Source: Nocardiopsis gilva YIM 90087 (GTDB lineage: Bacteria > Actinomycetota > Actinomycetes > Streptosporangiales > Streptosporangiaceae). From it: a DNA stretch of 64,000 nt. The stretch spans positions 2,232,001-2,296,000 of the forward strand of contig NZ_CP022753.1 in assembly GCF_002263495.1 (NCBI RefSeq). Reading direction: 5' to 3'. This document shows, in pieces, positions 49,100 to 55,666 of this stretch (its first letter is position 1; each line of letters begins with the position of its first letter). Both the position numbers and the translations under genes were made by a program. The notes beneath the pieces are model-generated. The model did no database searches, was not told the DNA's origin, and worked only from the letters and a program-made list of their open reading frames with translations.

Positions 49100-51655
49100 T
49101 CAACCAGCGCCGAAGCAGACGAAGCCGGTACCGGCGAGGTGGTCGGCCACCGCGCGTGCGGGTGTCGCGCCGGAGGCGACCGCGTGGTGGAACCGGGTCA
49201 TGGCGTCCGGCGTGCCGTGGTCGCGCACCGGGAGCACACCCGCGACGACGGTCGCTCCGCCCAGCGCCAGCAGCGCGGCTCCGAAGCCGATCGGAACCCC
49301 GGCCGGTGAGGTGACCGCCGCCCCCACCCGGCACGACGACAGCACGGTCAGGGCAGGCACCGAGGAGAGGAGTTCCAGGTCATAGGCGAACAGGGGACCG
49401 TCGGCGAGAGCGACTCCCGAGAGCATCGGCGCACCGGCGGGCATCAGCCCGTGGGCGGCGATGTGCGCCAGGTCGGCGTGGACCAGCCGGTCCATGACGG
49501 CCTCGACGCGGGCATCGGGTCCGGTCAGCGTGTCGGCCTCGGGAAAGCACCGGTGCAGGGCGCGGATCTCCGAGGCCGCCGCATCGAGTTCCCCGCCGGC
49601 CGCGAGTAGGACCCGCGGCGCGCGGCGGTCGACGGTCCGCGCCCGCTTGCGGCAGGCCAGCCACGCCTGGCCCGAGGGGACCACGCTCACCTCCCGCCCA
49701 CGTAGTGCGGGCAGCATCCCCCAGGGCAGCGCCTGGGAGAACGGCGCCGGGGCGATCACCAGCGGGCGATCGTCGGGGAGACCGGAGATCGGCGCGAACA
49801 GCAGTCGCTCGACCTCCGCGGCGAGAGCGGTCAAACCCGCGTCCATGCCGCGGTCGTCGGCGCGGGCGTTCATCCGGGCGAGGCCGTTGAGCCGCTGGAC
49901 GGCGTCGTCGATGGCGTGGAGCGGCGGAAGCGGATGGGCCGCCACCTGCCCGTCCACGACCGTGATCGCCGCCGGCACACCGTGCGGCTGCGTGAAGCAG
50001 ACAAAGGCGTGGCGTCCGAGCCGTTCGGCGAGCTCGGTGGTGTCGAAAGCCAACGGGGCCGTGGGAGCGCGCGGCCCCGCGGCCACACACCCGCTGTGCC
50101 ACTGTGCCGGGCCGAGCAGTGAGGCGAGCCGCCGCGCAGTGGTCGGCGCGTCATCGTCCCCGGCCCGGAGACGCGCGAACGCCGCCCGGCAGCGGTCCAG
50201 CATGCCCTGCCACGCCGGGTCGCGGCATCGCCCCGGGGCGCTGAACAGCGTCCGTCCGTACTCGATCCACTCCAGTGCGGCCGCGGCATCGCCGTCGCCC
50301 AGTGCCCCGCGGGCTCCGGCGGCGGCCACCTCGCGTTCGTGGGAACGCTGGTGGGCCAGCAGCTCCAGGTGGCGCACGGCGGGGGCCGTCGGGCGGCCAT
50401 CGTCGGTTGCGCGCAGCAGTTCGCGTCGCGCCCCGGCGTGATGACCGTTGGCGATCGCGCGCAGGGCACTGGTGTGGCGCGGAGCCAGTACCTCCGGCGA
50501 CAACGGACCCAGCGGTGCGCTGGACACGCACCGAGCGATGGTCAGAGCCGTGCCCGCCGACGGGGGAGCGGTACCCGGGTCGGTGGACGCTGACGTATCA
50601 GTGAGCGTCCTACTCGCGGGCAGTGCGGGACGAGGGCGGGGAATCCCCGCGGGCCGGGGGCGCGGACCGGCGGGCCTTCCCGGTTCCGGTCGGGGAGCGG
50701 GGATGTGCAGGGCGGACCACACCACCTGATCGGCCAACCGCGCCCACAGCGAGTCGGGAGCGCACCGCGCCCGAACGCGCAACGCCTGGTCCCGGGCGGC
50801 GTCGCGCTCGTCGCGGCTCAGGTGGACCTTGGCGCGCAGCAACCGTGCGGTGATCTCCTCCGCGGAAACGCTCTCCGGCCGGATCCCGAGCAGGAACCGC
50901 CGGGCCTCCCCGAACATTCCGGCGGCCAGGAGAGCGTCGACATGGTCGAGGCGCAGTCCCACCCTGCGCTGCTCGGGCACCAGACAGGCGGCTGCCTTGA
51001 AGCAGGAGACGGCGGTGGCGATGTCGCCCCGCCGCGTCGCCAGACACCCCAGGTTCTGCAGGGCGACCCCGCGCAGGCAGTCCAGCGCGTCGCGCTCGGC
51101 CAGCTCCAGCGCCTGCCCCAGGTCCTCGGCCGACGCCGCGAATCGCCCGGAGTACATCAGGGCCAGTCCGCGGTTGGCCAGGAGTCCTGGCAGCATGCGG
51201 TCATCGGCGTCACCACGGAGCTCCGCCAGCGCCGCGTCGAAACAGGCGATCGCCGCCCCGAAGCGCCCGCGCTGGGCGGCCGCGACCCCCTGATGCAGCA
51301 GAGCCGGTACCCGCGCCGTCGGGGTACCCGCCGCCATCCGATCCAGCGTGGCCCCGGCGATCCCACCACCCCCACGCAGCGCCAACAGCCCCAACCGCGA
51401 CGCCCGCGCGTGTGCCGCCGGCTCGTCCAACCCCGCCCGCACGGCCACCGCCGCGGCCTGCCGCAACGTCCGATGCGCCCGCGCGGTCTCACCGAACTCC
51501 CGCTGCGCCATACCCACGATCCGCAGCGCGACGGATCTCGTCCCGGGCTCAGGCGAACCGGCGAGCATCTCCTCGGCCCGCTGCCGCGCCTTCTCCGGAT
51601 CGCGGGCGATGAGCGTAATCGGCAGGTGGACATCGACATGCTGCGGATCCGCCAT
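49100..51655 (-). CDS. TPR-CHAT caspase-like protease
   Basis: An 851-residue cytoplasmic protein. Residues about 15-330 form tetratricopeptide-like helical repeats (ARAHRTLRQAAAVAVRAGL, GLALMYSGRFAASAEDLGQA). A Pro/Ser/Thr-rich linker follows (about 335-390), then a second helical block. Residues about 600-851 form a CHAT domain, a caspase-fold cysteine protease. The catalytic dyad is present: His735 in LAHIAAHGLM and Cys775 in VLSSCRVGA. CHAT proteases act in regulated proteolysis and in some CRISPR and conflict systems, where TPRs sense partners. An ECF sigma factor and a small protein lie upstream on the same strand, suggesting a signalling module. ATG 51655 follows AAAGG by 8 nt. Confidence 0.87.
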   Translation of the reverse strand: MADPQHVDVHLPITLIARDPEKARQRAEEMLAGSPEPGTRSVALRIVGMAQREFGETARAHRTLRQAAAVAVRAGLDEPAAHARASRLGLLALRGGGGIAGATLDRMAAGTPTARVPALLHQGVAAAQRGRFGAAIACFDAALAELRGDADDRMLPGLLANRGLALMYSGRFAASAEDLGQALELAERDALDCLRGVALQNLGCLATRRGDIATAVSCFKAAACLVPEQRRVGLRLDHVDALLAAGMFGEARRFLLGIRPESVSAEEITARLLRAKVHLSRDERDAARDQALRVRARCAPDSLWARLADQVVWSALHIPAPRPEPGRPAGPRPRPAGIPRPRPALPASRTLTDTSASTDPGTAPPSAGTALTIARCVSSAPLGPLSPEVLAPRHTSALRAIANGHHAGARRELLRATDDGRPTAPAVRHLELLAHQRSHEREVAAAGARGALGDGDAAAALEWIEYGRTLFSAPGRCRDPAWQGMLDRCRAAFARLRAGDDDAPTTARRLASLLGPAQWHSGCVAAGPRAPTAPLAFDTTELAERLGRHAFVCFTQPHGVPAAITVVDGQVAAHPLPPLHAIDDAVQRLNGLARMNARADDRGMDAGLTALAAEVERLLFAPISGLPDDRPLVIAPAPFSQALPWGMLPALRGREVSVVPSGQAWLACRKRARTVDRRAPRVLLAAGGELDAAASEIRALHRCFPEADTLTGPDARVEAVMDRLVHADLAHIAAHGLMPAGAPMLSGVALADGPLFAYDLELLSSVPALTVLSSCRVGAAVTSPAGVPIGFGAALLALGGATVVAGVLPVRDHGTPDAMTRFHHAVASGATPARAVADHLAGTGFVCFGAG

Positions 51656-51851
51656 GCGTGAGCCTTTCGCACGTGACGATCGTGCAGGGAAACGGCTGAA
51701 CAGCAACAGCATTGCTGCCTGTTGGCTATGCGTCACTGTAAGTGATATCACTCCCCGATCCTCTTACGGGAGGGGCAATCTGGTTTTCCACAGCCCGAAC
51801 CGCCCCGATTCCTCGCCCGACGTCGGAAAACAGCGTCGATCGGCGTCCCGA

Positions 51852-51885
51852 GTGACCATCCGTAACTACGGTTACGGATGGTCAC
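51852..51885. promoter_or_regulatory. perfect 15-bp inverted repeat upstream of the CHAT gene
   Basis: GTGACCATCCGTAAC (51852-51866) and GTTACGGATGGTCAC (51871-51885) are perfect inverted copies with a 4-bp spacer TACG. It lies 197 bp upstream of the CHAT start. It could be an operator for a dimeric regulator or a terminator for transcripts coming from the sigma-factor side. There is no U-tract. Confidence 0.5.
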
Positions 51886-52429
51886 CGGCGGACCGGTGAG
51901 TGCGAAGCCCCCGAGCCGACCGATCTAGGGTGCACGACGCGTTATGGGGCCGATGATGTGACCGGACGCGCTCGATCGTCTGCACCGACGGGACATCGAT
52001 GGTGAGCTGAGGGCCGCTCTTGAGAGGAGCCGCTTGCAGCGGCTGGACGAGGGAAGCGCCTGGTGGAAACGGGGGAGCACGGAAGGCAGCACCCGGTCGC
52101 GGAGGTGGACGCGCATCCCGTCGATCGCCACGCTGAGCGGCGCGGGCCAGCTGCGGCGCTGCCTGACACCCGGCAGTGGTGGAAGCCGTCGGCCCGCCAG
52201 GCCACGCGCGCCCAGTTCTGGCCGTGCCGAGGGTTCTGTGGCGAGCGCCGATGCCGCGGCACGCGCTGACCTGACCGATGCGCTTGGAGACATCGCGTTC
52301 GGCGATCTCGATGGGGCGGTGATCTATGGGGGCGATGGTGCGGGTGGTGCGTGATCGCGGCCGTTGGGCCGACCCCTCGTGCTGCTCGTGCTTGGTTCCG
52401 CCCGGGCTCGTGGACGCCGCGGAGCTTTT
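51886..52429. other. gene-poor stretch inside the ECF/CHAT region
   Basis: About 540 bp without a convincing gene. Frames on both strands stay open (for example 52034-52354 plus and 51925-52293 minus), but none has consistent GC-ending codons, a good start site and a recognisable product. It may be a regulatory leader or the eroded remnant of a gene. I could not match it to any transposase. Confidence 0.4.
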
Positions 52430-52981
52430 CTAGTAGGCCATCCACGGGGTGCTGACCGGTGGCCCGTCTTTCCGGTGGAGGAGGATGCTGACCGGTCCCC
52501 GGGGGAGTGAGCGGGCGGCGAAGGTGCCGGATTCGTCGAGGTGGTGCCAGGTGGAGCCGCATGGCCAGCGGACGTGGATGTCGGTGGCGTCGGTGGGGCT
52601 GACGCGGCCCACGATGTCGCGGTGGTCGTCGCGGACCGTGATCTCCACCCGCACGGTCAGGCCCGCGGCGTGGAAGCGTATGTAGCGGGGGGAGGCCGCG
52701 AGGTCCGACACGGCGCGCAGGTCGGTGGCCGGGTCGTCGAGGGAGTCGTTGACCACCTCGGCGATGATGGCGTCGTCCGTGCACGTCGCGAAGGCGGCGC
52801 GGGCTGTGGCGCGGATGTCGGCGGGTGTGGGGTCACCGGGGGGAGGACTGCCGCGCGGCGGTTCCGCCATCCGTTCGTCGAGGACGGCCTCCCACGGCTC
52901 CGGGGCGGGGGCGGCCTGCCGCTGCCGCGCGCGGTGGCGGCTCGGTCGGTGGTTGTCGATGCCCTGGTCCTCGGCGGTCAT
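52430..52981 (-). CDS. uncharacterised partner of the ECF sigma factor
   Basis: A 183-residue soluble protein. The first third is Arg/Pro-rich and disordered-looking, the middle is a helix (PADIRATARAAFATCTDDAI), and the rest is beta-rich (YIRFHAAGLTVRVEITVRDD, VGRVSPTDATDIHVRWPCGS). No membrane segment and no zinc-binding anti-sigma HxxxCxxC motif are seen. It starts one base after the sigma gene's stop, so it is almost certainly co-expressed with it. Its place suggests an anti-sigma or adaptor role, but this is inference. Confidence 0.65.
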   Translation of the reverse strand: MTAEDQGIDNHRPSRHRARQRQAAPAPEPWEAVLDERMAEPPRGSPPPGDPTPADIRATARAAFATCTDDAIIAEVVNDSLDDPATDLRAVSDLAASPRYIRFHAAGLTVRVEITVRDDHRDIVGRVSPTDATDIHVRWPCGSTWHHLDESGTFAARSLPRGPVSILLHRKDGPPVSTPWMAY

Positions 52982-52982
52982 C

Positions 52983-53570
52983 TCACGGACACTCCCCGGT
53001 GTTGTCGTCCATTAGCAGGCGGCGCAGCCGCCGTCTGGCGCGGCGCCGGGCGTTGGGGATCCGCTCGCGGGGCAGGCCGGTGAAGTCCGCGACGTAGGAC
53101 GCCGATGACCGAGGGGCGTCCATGTCCAGGATGGCGATCGTCCGGTCGGGCTCGGCCAGTTCGGTGATGGCGCGGTAGACCCGGCGGCGGCGTTCGGTGG
53201 CCAGGAGGTGTTCCTCGGGGGTCGGCTGGTCCCTGGCGGCTGGGGCGTCGAACGTGTCCAGCTGGACGGGGTCCTCCAGGGTGAGGCGCCGCGCGAGTTT
53301 CAGCTGTTTGCGGCACGCGTTGTGGGTGGCCGCGGCGAGCCACGCGCCGACGTGCTCCGGGGTGCGGATCAGCGGCAGGTGCTGCCAGAAGCTGAACCAG
53401 ACCGTCTGCTCCGCGTCCTGCGCGTCGTGGACGGACATGCCGTAGAAGCGGACCACCGCCCGGACGCGGCGGGCGAATCTGGCGATCAGGTGCTCCAGCG
53501 CCTCGGCGTCGTCGAGTGCGCGCTTCACCAGTTCGCCGGTCGCCATCTCGGTCCAGGGCTGGTCACTCAC
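52983..53570 (-). CDS. ECF-type sigma-70 factor
   Basis: A 195-residue group 4 sigma factor. Region 2 spans about residues 15-85 (DAEALEHLIARFARRVRAVV, HDAQDAEQTVWFSFWQHLP) and region 4 about residues 120-185, with the helix-turn-helix SYVADFTGLPRERIPNARRR. It should direct RNA polymerase to a small regulon in response to a signal. No membrane anti-sigma gene is adjacent. The GTG at 53570 is chosen; an ATG at 53606 is possible. The divergent DUF3145 gene begins 228 bp away. Confidence 0.88.
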   Translation of the reverse strand: MSDQPWTEMATGELVKRALDDAEALEHLIARFARRVRAVVRFYGMSVHDAQDAEQTVWFSFWQHLPLIRTPEHVGAWLAAATHNACRKQLKLARRLTLEDPVQLDTFDAPAARDQPTPEEHLLATERRRRVYRAITELAEPDRTIAILDMDAPRSSASYVADFTGLPRERIPNARRRARRRLRRLLMDDNTGECP

Positions 53571-54315: not shown

Positions 54316-54765
54316 CTATCGGCGACTGCCGGTGTTCTCGTCCGGCCAGATGGCGGCGGCGACCAGGATGGCGGCCCAGATTCCCAGCGGAACCAGGGGC
54401 CAGAACGGGAGCATGGCGCCGCCCATGACGCTGGTGACGCCCCAGATCCCGGTCATGATGACGGCTCCGCCCAGCCACCAGCGCCACTCGTCCACCCAGT
54501 CGCGCCAGGGAGACAGCGCGGCGCGGCCCGCGGCGACCAGTTCACCCTCGTCTTCCTCCGCGGGCTCGGGAGGCAATGGAAGGTCGGCCGTCAGGGCGCG
54601 CAGTTCGCCGAGGACGACCGCGTGCATTGCCTTGTCGAGCCGGAGTTCGTATTCGGCCAGATCGAGACGGCCCTCGGTCAGGGCCGTCGCGAGCCGTTCG
54701 GCAACGGCGTCGCGGTCGGCGTCCGAGGCGCGCATCTGGCTCTCCGGGACGCGATCGTCGTCCAA
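54316..54765 (-). CDS. DUF1707 membrane protein, paralogue 1
   Basis: A roughly 149-residue protein. The DUF1707 domain is at the N-terminus (MRASDADRDAVAERLATALT, then GRLDLAEYELRLDKAM). Two hydrophobic segments follow (WRWWLGGAVIMTGIWGVTSV and LPFWPLVPLGIWAAILVAAA), giving a small membrane-bound protein with a cytoplasmic DUF1707 head. A TTG at 54765 behind AGGGGG is the preferred start; an ATG at 54798 is the alternative. It is a tandem paralogue of the gene at 54914-55459. Confidence 0.8.
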   Translation of the reverse strand: MDDDRVPESQMRASDADRDAVAERLATALTEGRLDLAEYELRLDKAMHAVVLGELRALTADLPLPPEPAEEDEGELVAAGRAALSPWRDWVDEWRWWLGGAVIMTGIWGVTSVMGGAMLPFWPLVPLGIWAAILVAAAIWPDENTGSRR

Positions 54766-54913
54766 CGCCCACCCCCTGCCGCACGATGCTGGGGACATTT
54801 ACGATACGCCGCACGCTGAGACGAGAAAAGGCACCCGATCGGCAGAGTCGTGTCGCGGTGTTTCTTCCTCCCGGAGCTGCGGACGGACCGGAGGAGGGGG
54901 ACCGCCGCGGCGC

Positions 54914-55459
54914 TCAGCGGTGGCGCCTGTGGTCCCTGCGTCTCATTTTTCTCCTGCGCCTTTCCGCGTGCCTGTCCTTTTCCCTGTCCTCCACGTCCAC
55001 GTCGAGATCCAGGTCGTCGTCATCGCACCGGGAGGGGAAGACGAGGTGGGCGAGGAGGACGGCGGCCCAGATCCCCAGCGGAATGGCCGGCCAGAAGTGG
55101 GTGAATTCCCCGTCGCGGAGGCTGCTGACGCCCCAGATTCCCGTCATGATGATCGCGCCGCCGAGCCACCAGCGCCATTCGTCGAACCATTCGCGCCAGG
55201 GCGAGGGGGCGTAGTTCTCCGCGCCGACCGCGGCCAGGTCGACGGGTTCCCGGTCCGGCTGCTGGGATGTCGGTAGATCCGCGGTGAGGGGCTCCAGCTC
55301 ACCGAAGACGGTGGCGGACATGGCTGTGTCCAGGCGCCGTTCGTATTCGGCCAGGTCCAGCCGCCCCTCCGACAGCGCCGATGCCAGACGCTGGGCCACA
55401 GCGTCCCGATCGGCGTCGGCTGCGCGCATCCCGCTGTGCGGCGTGATGTCGGAACCCAT
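54914..55459 (-). CDS. DUF1707 membrane protein, paralogue 2
   Basis: A 181-residue protein with the same layout as the neighbour: MRAADADRDAVAQRLASALS, EYERRLDTAM, then WRWWLGGAIIMTGIWGVSSL and WPAIPLGIWAAVLLAHLVFP. It ends in a very basic tail (RRRRKMRRRDHRRHR). The DEWRWWLGGA stretch is shared with paralogue 1, so the pair arose by tandem duplication. ATG 55459 follows GGAGGGG by 7 nt. Confidence 0.82.
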   Translation of the reverse strand: MGSDITPHSGMRAADADRDAVAQRLASALSEGRLDLAEYERRLDTAMSATVFGELEPLTADLPTSQQPDREPVDLAAVGAENYAPSPWREWFDEWRWWLGGAIIMTGIWGVSSLRDGEFTHFWPAIPLGIWAAVLLAHLVFPSRCDDDDLDLDVDVEDREKDRHAERRRRKMRRRDHRRHR

Positions 55460-55666
55460 CGCCGTCCCCTCCGTCGAATCCCCTGCTGTGCCCGTCCGCC
55501 GAGGCTCGTCGGCTCGGCGATCGCCTGCGGGCACCTCCGTGGGATCCGGCGGTGCCCGGTTGCCAGCGTAGTTGGCGTGGTATGCGAAGTTCATCCTCCC
55601 GGCGACCAGATCGACCGTACAGCTTTCGTATGACGCGGCCCCAGTGGACCGGCCGCCGTGGTCGGT

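Follow-up and report, generated by a model that had tools for sequence, protein, structure and literature searches.

A conserved actinobacterial module of an ECF sigma factor, a small partner and a TPR-CHAT protein, with a predicted cut site in the partner

The window analysed here, a 64,000-nucleotide stretch of contig NZ_CP022753.1 of Nocardiopsis gilva YIM 90087, carries on the minus strand at 49100-53570 the genes of an extracytoplasmic function (ECF) sigma factor, a 183-amino-acid partner and a TPR-CHAT protein. As a genetic unit, the three genes are well supported as a conserved signalling module, and control of the sigma factor by proteolysis is plausible.

The three-gene locus of Nocardiopsis gilva

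The genes and the codons discussed below are located as follows.

52983-53570, minus strand: ECF-type sigma factor gene, GTG start, 195 amino acids, with Sigma70_r2 and TIGR02937 matches
52430-52981, minus strand: partner gene, 183 amino acids, ATG one base past the ECF stop
52715-52717, minus strand: Arg89 codon of the partner, near-invariant within a linker of variable length, proposed P1 residue for cutting by CHAT
49100-51655, minus strand: TPR-CHAT gene, 851 amino acids from ATG 51655, Csx29/separase-like predicted fold
49451-49453, minus strand: catalytic His735 codon of CHAT, invariant in 24/24 and 64/64 aligned sequences
49331-49333, minus strand: catalytic Cys775 codon of CHAT, invariant in 24/24 and 64/64 aligned sequences

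An earlier sequence-only reading of this DNA had given the same three minus-strand genes, with the same coordinates for the sigma factor and the partner and the one-base spacing between them; the gap between partner and CHAT is 774 bases instead of the approximately 775 it reported, given ATG 51655 as the CHAT start, which was chosen over GTG 51751 by judgement. The sigma factor scores above the cut-offs of both Pfam Sigma70_r2 (3.5e-8, 33.5 bits, cut-off 24) and TIGR02937 sigma70-ECF (6.4e-16, 58.4 bits, cut-off 42.9), and the solved structure closest to it by sequence is RpoE 1or7 (4.5e-6). A hydropathy scan showed a clear transmembrane stretch in none of the three window proteins; the highest 19-residue hydropathy of the TPR-CHAT protein, 1.98, lies within its CHAT part.

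The CHAT domain is matched at residues 611-837 (Pfam, 1.6e-24, 87.3 bits against a cut-off of 24), accompanied by a TPR_1 match at 3e-9. The His735/Cys775 dyad lies at the residues where the sequence-only reading had placed it and is invariant in the alignment A4, which comprised 63 of the 73 usable CHAT sequences plus that of the window, near-identical rows being omitted. By the Pfam profile and this dyad the protein is a CHAT peptidase, with predicted proteolytic activity. Its predicted fold matches Csx29, the protease of Craspase, and separase, whereby the CHAT part of the predicted structure superposes on ctSPD 5fby with 3.0 Å across 299 residues at 15% identity. The Pfam Peptidase_C50 score was 12.9 bits, under the cut-off of 27.8, which places the protein outside C50 by this profile.

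The grouping of the three genes is hardly due to chance, because the 6.14-Mb genome contains only two CHAT matches and the genes stay together across many actinobacteria. The other CHAT gene (G000:C1:4652841-4653392, L002), which lies in a 1264-amino-acid open frame, is distant from the module.

Conservation, the subtilase and the chromosomal setting

All three genes occurred together in 76 of the 80 named actinobacterial loci, which were found starting from CHAT and represent the best 80 of 264. Among the other four, the CHAT match lies at a contig end in three, while L142 has the partner with the ECF gene undetected. The Nocardiopsaceae among the named close relatives include Actinorugispora, Thermobifida and Marinitenerispora. 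No fusion of the partner with either ECF or CHAT was seen among the 80 loci. Gene order and strand differ among loci, and the adjacency is therefore not that of one frozen operon. The partner was present in 41 of 60 relatives, and CHAT was nearby at 36 of 40 partner places among them (40 of 48 rows). Forty further partner places from a class sample, hand-picked and spread over 109 rows, had an ECF gene in 39 cases and CHAT in 28; of the 12 places without a CHAT match, three (L202, L204 and L207) are truncated by a contig end, and L207 has a CHAT start. Since the locus sets overlap (for example L034/L073, L035/L074, L045/L116, L098/L195, L079/L200), counts over 112, 120 and 160 loci are partly dependent, with the 296-genome table described below unaffected. 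Tree distances of ECF, partner and CHAT correlate at 0.73-0.81 (110 of 112 loci, best CHAT stretch), a value that partly reflects the species tree.

Across 296 genomes of the class, partner and cognate CHAT occurred together in 94, the partner only in 2, CHAT only in 6 and neither in 194 (phi 0.94; Fisher 5e-67, a p-value not to be taken literally because the genomes are related). Cognate CHAT was defined as E 1e-60 or better, a cut-off set after the list had been seen, and 15 genomes whose matches were weaker (1e-21 to 1e-29) were scored as lacking it. The sequence-only reading had taken a lack of conserved co-occurrence as the outcome that would undo its grouping; the 76 complete loci out of 80, together with a cognate CHAT in 94 of the 96 partner-bearing genomes, are the reverse of such an outcome. 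One in-frame TGA each was seen in the cognate CHAT matches of G047:C907, G266, G315, G195 and G103, among the rows listed; these are perhaps decaying copies.

In the family f21, partner and CHAT lie apart or on separate contigs, yet CHAT was present in 17 of the 18 partner-bearing genomes, and a direct search found the gene in 17 of 17 (16 from f21 and one from f30). Among the genomes read fully, CHAT lies away from the sigma-partner pair in seven of f21 and one of f30, being linked in two other f30 genomes. At all eight unlinked CHAT sites that were read (seven of f21 and one of f30) a subtilase gene adjoins CHAT. Because the unlinked CHAT still accompanies the partner, with the subtilase beside it, there seem to be two sub-units, sigma + partner and CHAT + subtilase, which occur in the same genomes also where they are split. 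The partner was found in 22 of 246 genomes of a phylum-wide sample; it is thus widespread but patchy within the phylum sampled.

Overall, a subtilase-profile match was found in 96 of 120 loci and in 24 of the 40 class places, and two examples were identified as Pfam Peptidase_S8. All three simple triad motifs were present in 73 of 99 subtilase frames, and none of the 99 contained a strongly hydrophobic stretch when scanned from the profile match onward, with the signal peptide region outside the scan. The window locus has no linked subtilase, nor do its close relatives (L033-L038, L041, L073-L078 and L082, with L075 truncated by a contig end); the window genome has five S8 genes elsewhere. By eye, L081:3881-6877 looks like a gene for a trypsin-like protease, lying between the sigma-partner pair and CHAT at the place of the subtilase in other loci, and in both L258 and L104 the subtilase profile matches twice near a single module, perhaps because of tandem copies.

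The pairing of CHAT with a subtilase, also at the unlinked sites that were read (8/8), together with the role of CHAT proteins in defence in other systems, could be taken to mean that the two proteases are effectors, their expression being turned on by the sigma factor to kill or remodel the cell in defence or programmed death. The setting of the module argues against this. At least one of the four window neighbours (a type I phosphodiesterase, DUF5998, a GNAT-CoA-ligase-like protein and DUF3145) recurs in the fetched flank of 77 of 160 loci from several families, with 83 loci lacking them. No relative was found in one viral scan, and PADLOC on the window proteins gave only weak matches for CHAT (generic TPR 0.0025, BovA 0.046) and none for ECF and partner. 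Moreover, no promoter motif common to the ECF and CHAT genes was seen by eye. An effector role is thus regarded as very unlikely. The recurring housekeeping neighbours and the empty viral scan speak for vertical inheritance of the module rather than for a mobile conflict island, and, with PADLOC also weak, the conflict module that the sequence-only reading had offered as one possibility finds no support.

The partner protein, Arg89 and the proposed switch

The partner consists of N-terminal helices at residues 29-39 and 54-65, a linker at approximately 80-98 and a C-terminal beta-sandwich at approximately 98-183. The AlphaFold2 model has a predicted local distance difference test score (pLDDT) of 83, the C-terminal sandwich being confident and the N-terminal helices less sure. 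The window protein had no match in Pfam, NCBIfam or PADLOC at E 0.5, while 10 of 23 partner relatives weakly matched CarboxypepD_reg (best 0.0025), which is a regulatory-like domain and no peptidase. Judging by the model, the partner is probably no enzyme, with an immunoglobulin-like (Ig-like) sandwich and no catalytic domain.

The available part of a 2022 review (PMC8999054) proposes proteolytic control for the sigma factor group ECF54, with CHAT, subtilase and "carboxypeptidase" neighbours, i.e., the gene types also seen here, next to an ECF sigma factor that lacks a classical anti-sigma factor. The window module very probably belongs to ECF54, as assigned by gene context and not by profile score: CHAT is present, and the subtilase, found in 96/120 loci, is absent beside the window module and its close relatives. 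Since relatives of the partner weakly match CarboxypepD_reg, we think that the reported "carboxypeptidase" is this regulatory-type domain of the partner. In section 3.3 of the review, as far as available, ECF54 is placed in a class "regulated by proteolysis", for which the review describes a sigma factor that is degraded until a signal stops the proteases. Together with the co-occurrence of the module genes, this would suit a model in which the sigma factor is the protein destroyed, proteolysis keeping the system off until the signal arrives, and the partner serves as adaptor. We consider such a model unlikely: its "carboxypeptidase" is probably the partner, a predicted sandwich without catalytic domain, and the conserved linker arginine sits in the partner (the site search covered the partner, not the sigma factor).

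This arginine, Arg89, was kept in 59 of 59 sequences of the alignment A3, in 109 of 112 unique sequences and at all 40 class places, sets that overlap in part. The alignment A3 comprised 58 of the 74 usable partners plus that of the window, near-identical rows being omitted; partner starts were set at the start codon that came closest to overlapping the ECF stop by 4 bases, which biases the overlap figures. By eye, the three sequences that lack Arg in this alignment column are a fragment (the second match of L148) and L039 and L055, both with a nearby Arg. The surrounding linker is variable, with the top residue reaching at most 44% at each of the columns 84-88, 90, 91 and 98 (112 sequences); R99, at the start of the sandwich, was kept in 94 of 112. 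In 94 of 109 sequences, R89 precedes a Gly, Ser or Ala. As R89 stands alone as a fixed residue within a linker that otherwise varies, it has the appearance of a protease site, and we predict from the sequences that it is the site at which CHAT cuts the partner. The prediction fits the peptidase clan, because clan CD most commonly prefers a basic P1 and Arg is listed for separase in the accessible part of PMC4357240. Conservation of R89 in the family f21, where CHAT is unlinked yet present, is neutral in this respect.

Two points weigh against R89 as a CHAT site. The residue may have a structural role or be cut by a subtilase, and the position after it is looser in loci without a linked subtilase (11 of 19 with Gly, Ser or Ala, compared with 83 of 90 where a subtilase is linked, counts that ignore kinship). 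The latter difference, along with the subtilase-profile match in 96/120 loci, would be expected if the cut of the partner at R89 were made mainly by the subtilase, with CHAT acting upstream of the latter. However, the clade of the window keeps R89 without a linked subtilase, although the five S8 genes elsewhere remain candidates. Little probability is therefore given to the subtilase as main cutter.

With CHAT as the cutter, the proposed mechanism is a cytosolic three-protein switch in which the partner silences the ECF sigma factor, CHAT cuts the partner after Arg89, and the sigma factor is freed; we rate the chances of this scheme as about even. The partner would bind and silence the sigma factor, probably via its conserved N-terminal helical segment. 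The TPR region might sense a signal and thereby activate the protease, which would cut the linker after Arg89, so that the helices and the Ig-like domain come apart. What remains would then lose its grip or be degraded, leaving the sigma factor free; the order of these events is inferred. By gene order, co-inheritance and analogy, the partner is proposed as a soluble anti-sigma factor and protease substrate. The roles of partner and CHAT are drawn this way because of two precedents, Csx29/Csx30 and CalpL/CalpT, and the likeliest arrangement, by analogy, is that the partner is an anti-sigma factor and is cut by CHAT, in the way that Csx30 is cut by Csx29.

According to the part of PMC10028731 available, Csx29 of the type III-E CRISPR Craspase (Csx29/Csx30/CASP-sigma) cleaves Csx30, which inhibits an ECF sigma factor. 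The module resembles Craspase in having a TPR-CHAT protease of predicted Csx29 fold, but the window genome contains no match to the RAMP-family profile PF03787 (Cas7-11 effector), and its partner has 183 residues, whereas Csx30 has at least 560 by the same source; Csx30 was absent from the matches listed for the partner structure model. CalpL cuts CalpT (PMC11417357, available part) and, as proposed here, the CalpL/CalpT/CalpS system uses a protease to cut an anti-sigma factor holding an ECF sigma factor; there, however, the protease is a CRISPR-linked, cA4-activated Lon protease with a SAVED domain (PMC11417357 and PMC11229360, available parts). Separase (C50) is similar to the CHAT part in its superposition on ctSPD 5fby and in its listed Arg P1; it differs in the 15% identity and the Pfam C50 score below cut-off, and its substrate is eukaryotic cohesin.

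DdvA (8rot, 8rw5), compared by PDB title, is likewise a CHAT-domain protein tied to sigma regulation; unlike the module protein it is, by that title, transmembrane and itself an anti-sigma factor. Its similarity to the TPR-CHAT protein (Foldseek match to 8rw5, "transmembrane anti-sigma factor", at 1.9e-9; CHAT profile match of 8rot_B by sequence, 3e-8, positions 721-854) raises the alternative that TPR-CHAT is the sigma-binding inhibitor and the partner tunes CHAT. This is quite unlikely: the window CHAT protein shows no clear transmembrane stretch (maximum 1.98), the invariant dyad would be needless for a pure binding role, and the partner, not CHAT, directly follows the sigma gene, CHAT being apart in eight fully read genomes (seven of f21, one of f30).

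That the module is a CRISPR-free chromosomal counterpart of the Craspase sigma switch across Actinomycetota, with a separase-like TPR-CHAT protease that would cut a small Ig-like anti-sigma factor after R89 and free the ECF sigma factor, seems possible, though we would stop short of calling it probable. If true, this signalling design would be a wider bacterial one, of which the Csx29-Csx30-sigma switch of CRISPR systems is a single recruited version; bacterial caspase/separase-like proteases would then also serve, apart from defence, in ordinary signalling that is inherited vertically. An ECF sigma factor tied to CHAT and a subtilase outside CRISPR was met only in PMC8999054 (available part) within the literature searched, most subscription papers being outside its scope. 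In the part available, the gene neighbourhood and general proteolytic control are already in print for ECF54; the module here differs in the partner, a predicted non-enzymatic sandwich with a conserved linker Arg, and in the window clade, which lacks the linked subtilase. We met none of the following in the literature searched: a probably non-enzymatic partner, the linker Arg, a fold match to Csx29/separase, sub-units that are split yet co-occur almost completely, and the window clade without linked subtilase. The general ECF54-proteolysis proposal thereby gains a mechanism that can be tested, with both the substrate and the residue specified, the reported "carboxypeptidase" is suggested to be no enzyme, and a widespread actinobacterial regulator is linked to protease-sigma switches known from CRISPR systems.

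Non-coding elements and a neighbouring gene pair

The region between the partner and CHAT contains the following features.

51656-52429, minus strand: partner-CHAT gap, 774 bp, GC content 0.669 compared with 0.714-0.745 in the three genes
51852-51885, no strand assigned: 34-bp inverted repeat forming a strong hairpin, between partner and CHAT
51731-51747, minus strand: TATCACTTACAGTGACG (TATCACTnnnnGTGACG element), 5' of the CHAT ATG, with similar elements before CHAT in several relatives

The gap 51656-52429 had no Rfam match and no second copy in the genome, save the inverted repeat matching itself. A 61-base stretch around this repeat folds at -38.7 kcal/mol and has no T run; the repeat is a possible terminator of the ECF-partner transcript. 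The pattern TATCACTNNNNGTGACG has one exact match in the genome (51731-51747) and three with one mismatch, with none for the reversed control. Upstream of the ECF gene, a conserved GGTTAnnGT-like element was seen by eye in the window and in L033-L038 and L041, which we take to be compatible with a housekeeping -10 element (TAnnnT). A common promoter for ECF and CHAT was considered and rejected, the upstream elements differing in the window clade by eye, and no common ECF/CHAT upstream motif was seen by eye at the unlinked f21 sites. Beyond the module, at 54316-55594 of the window, lie two adjoining minus-strand genes with similar starts (MRA-DADRDAVA), presumably a DUF1707 pair.

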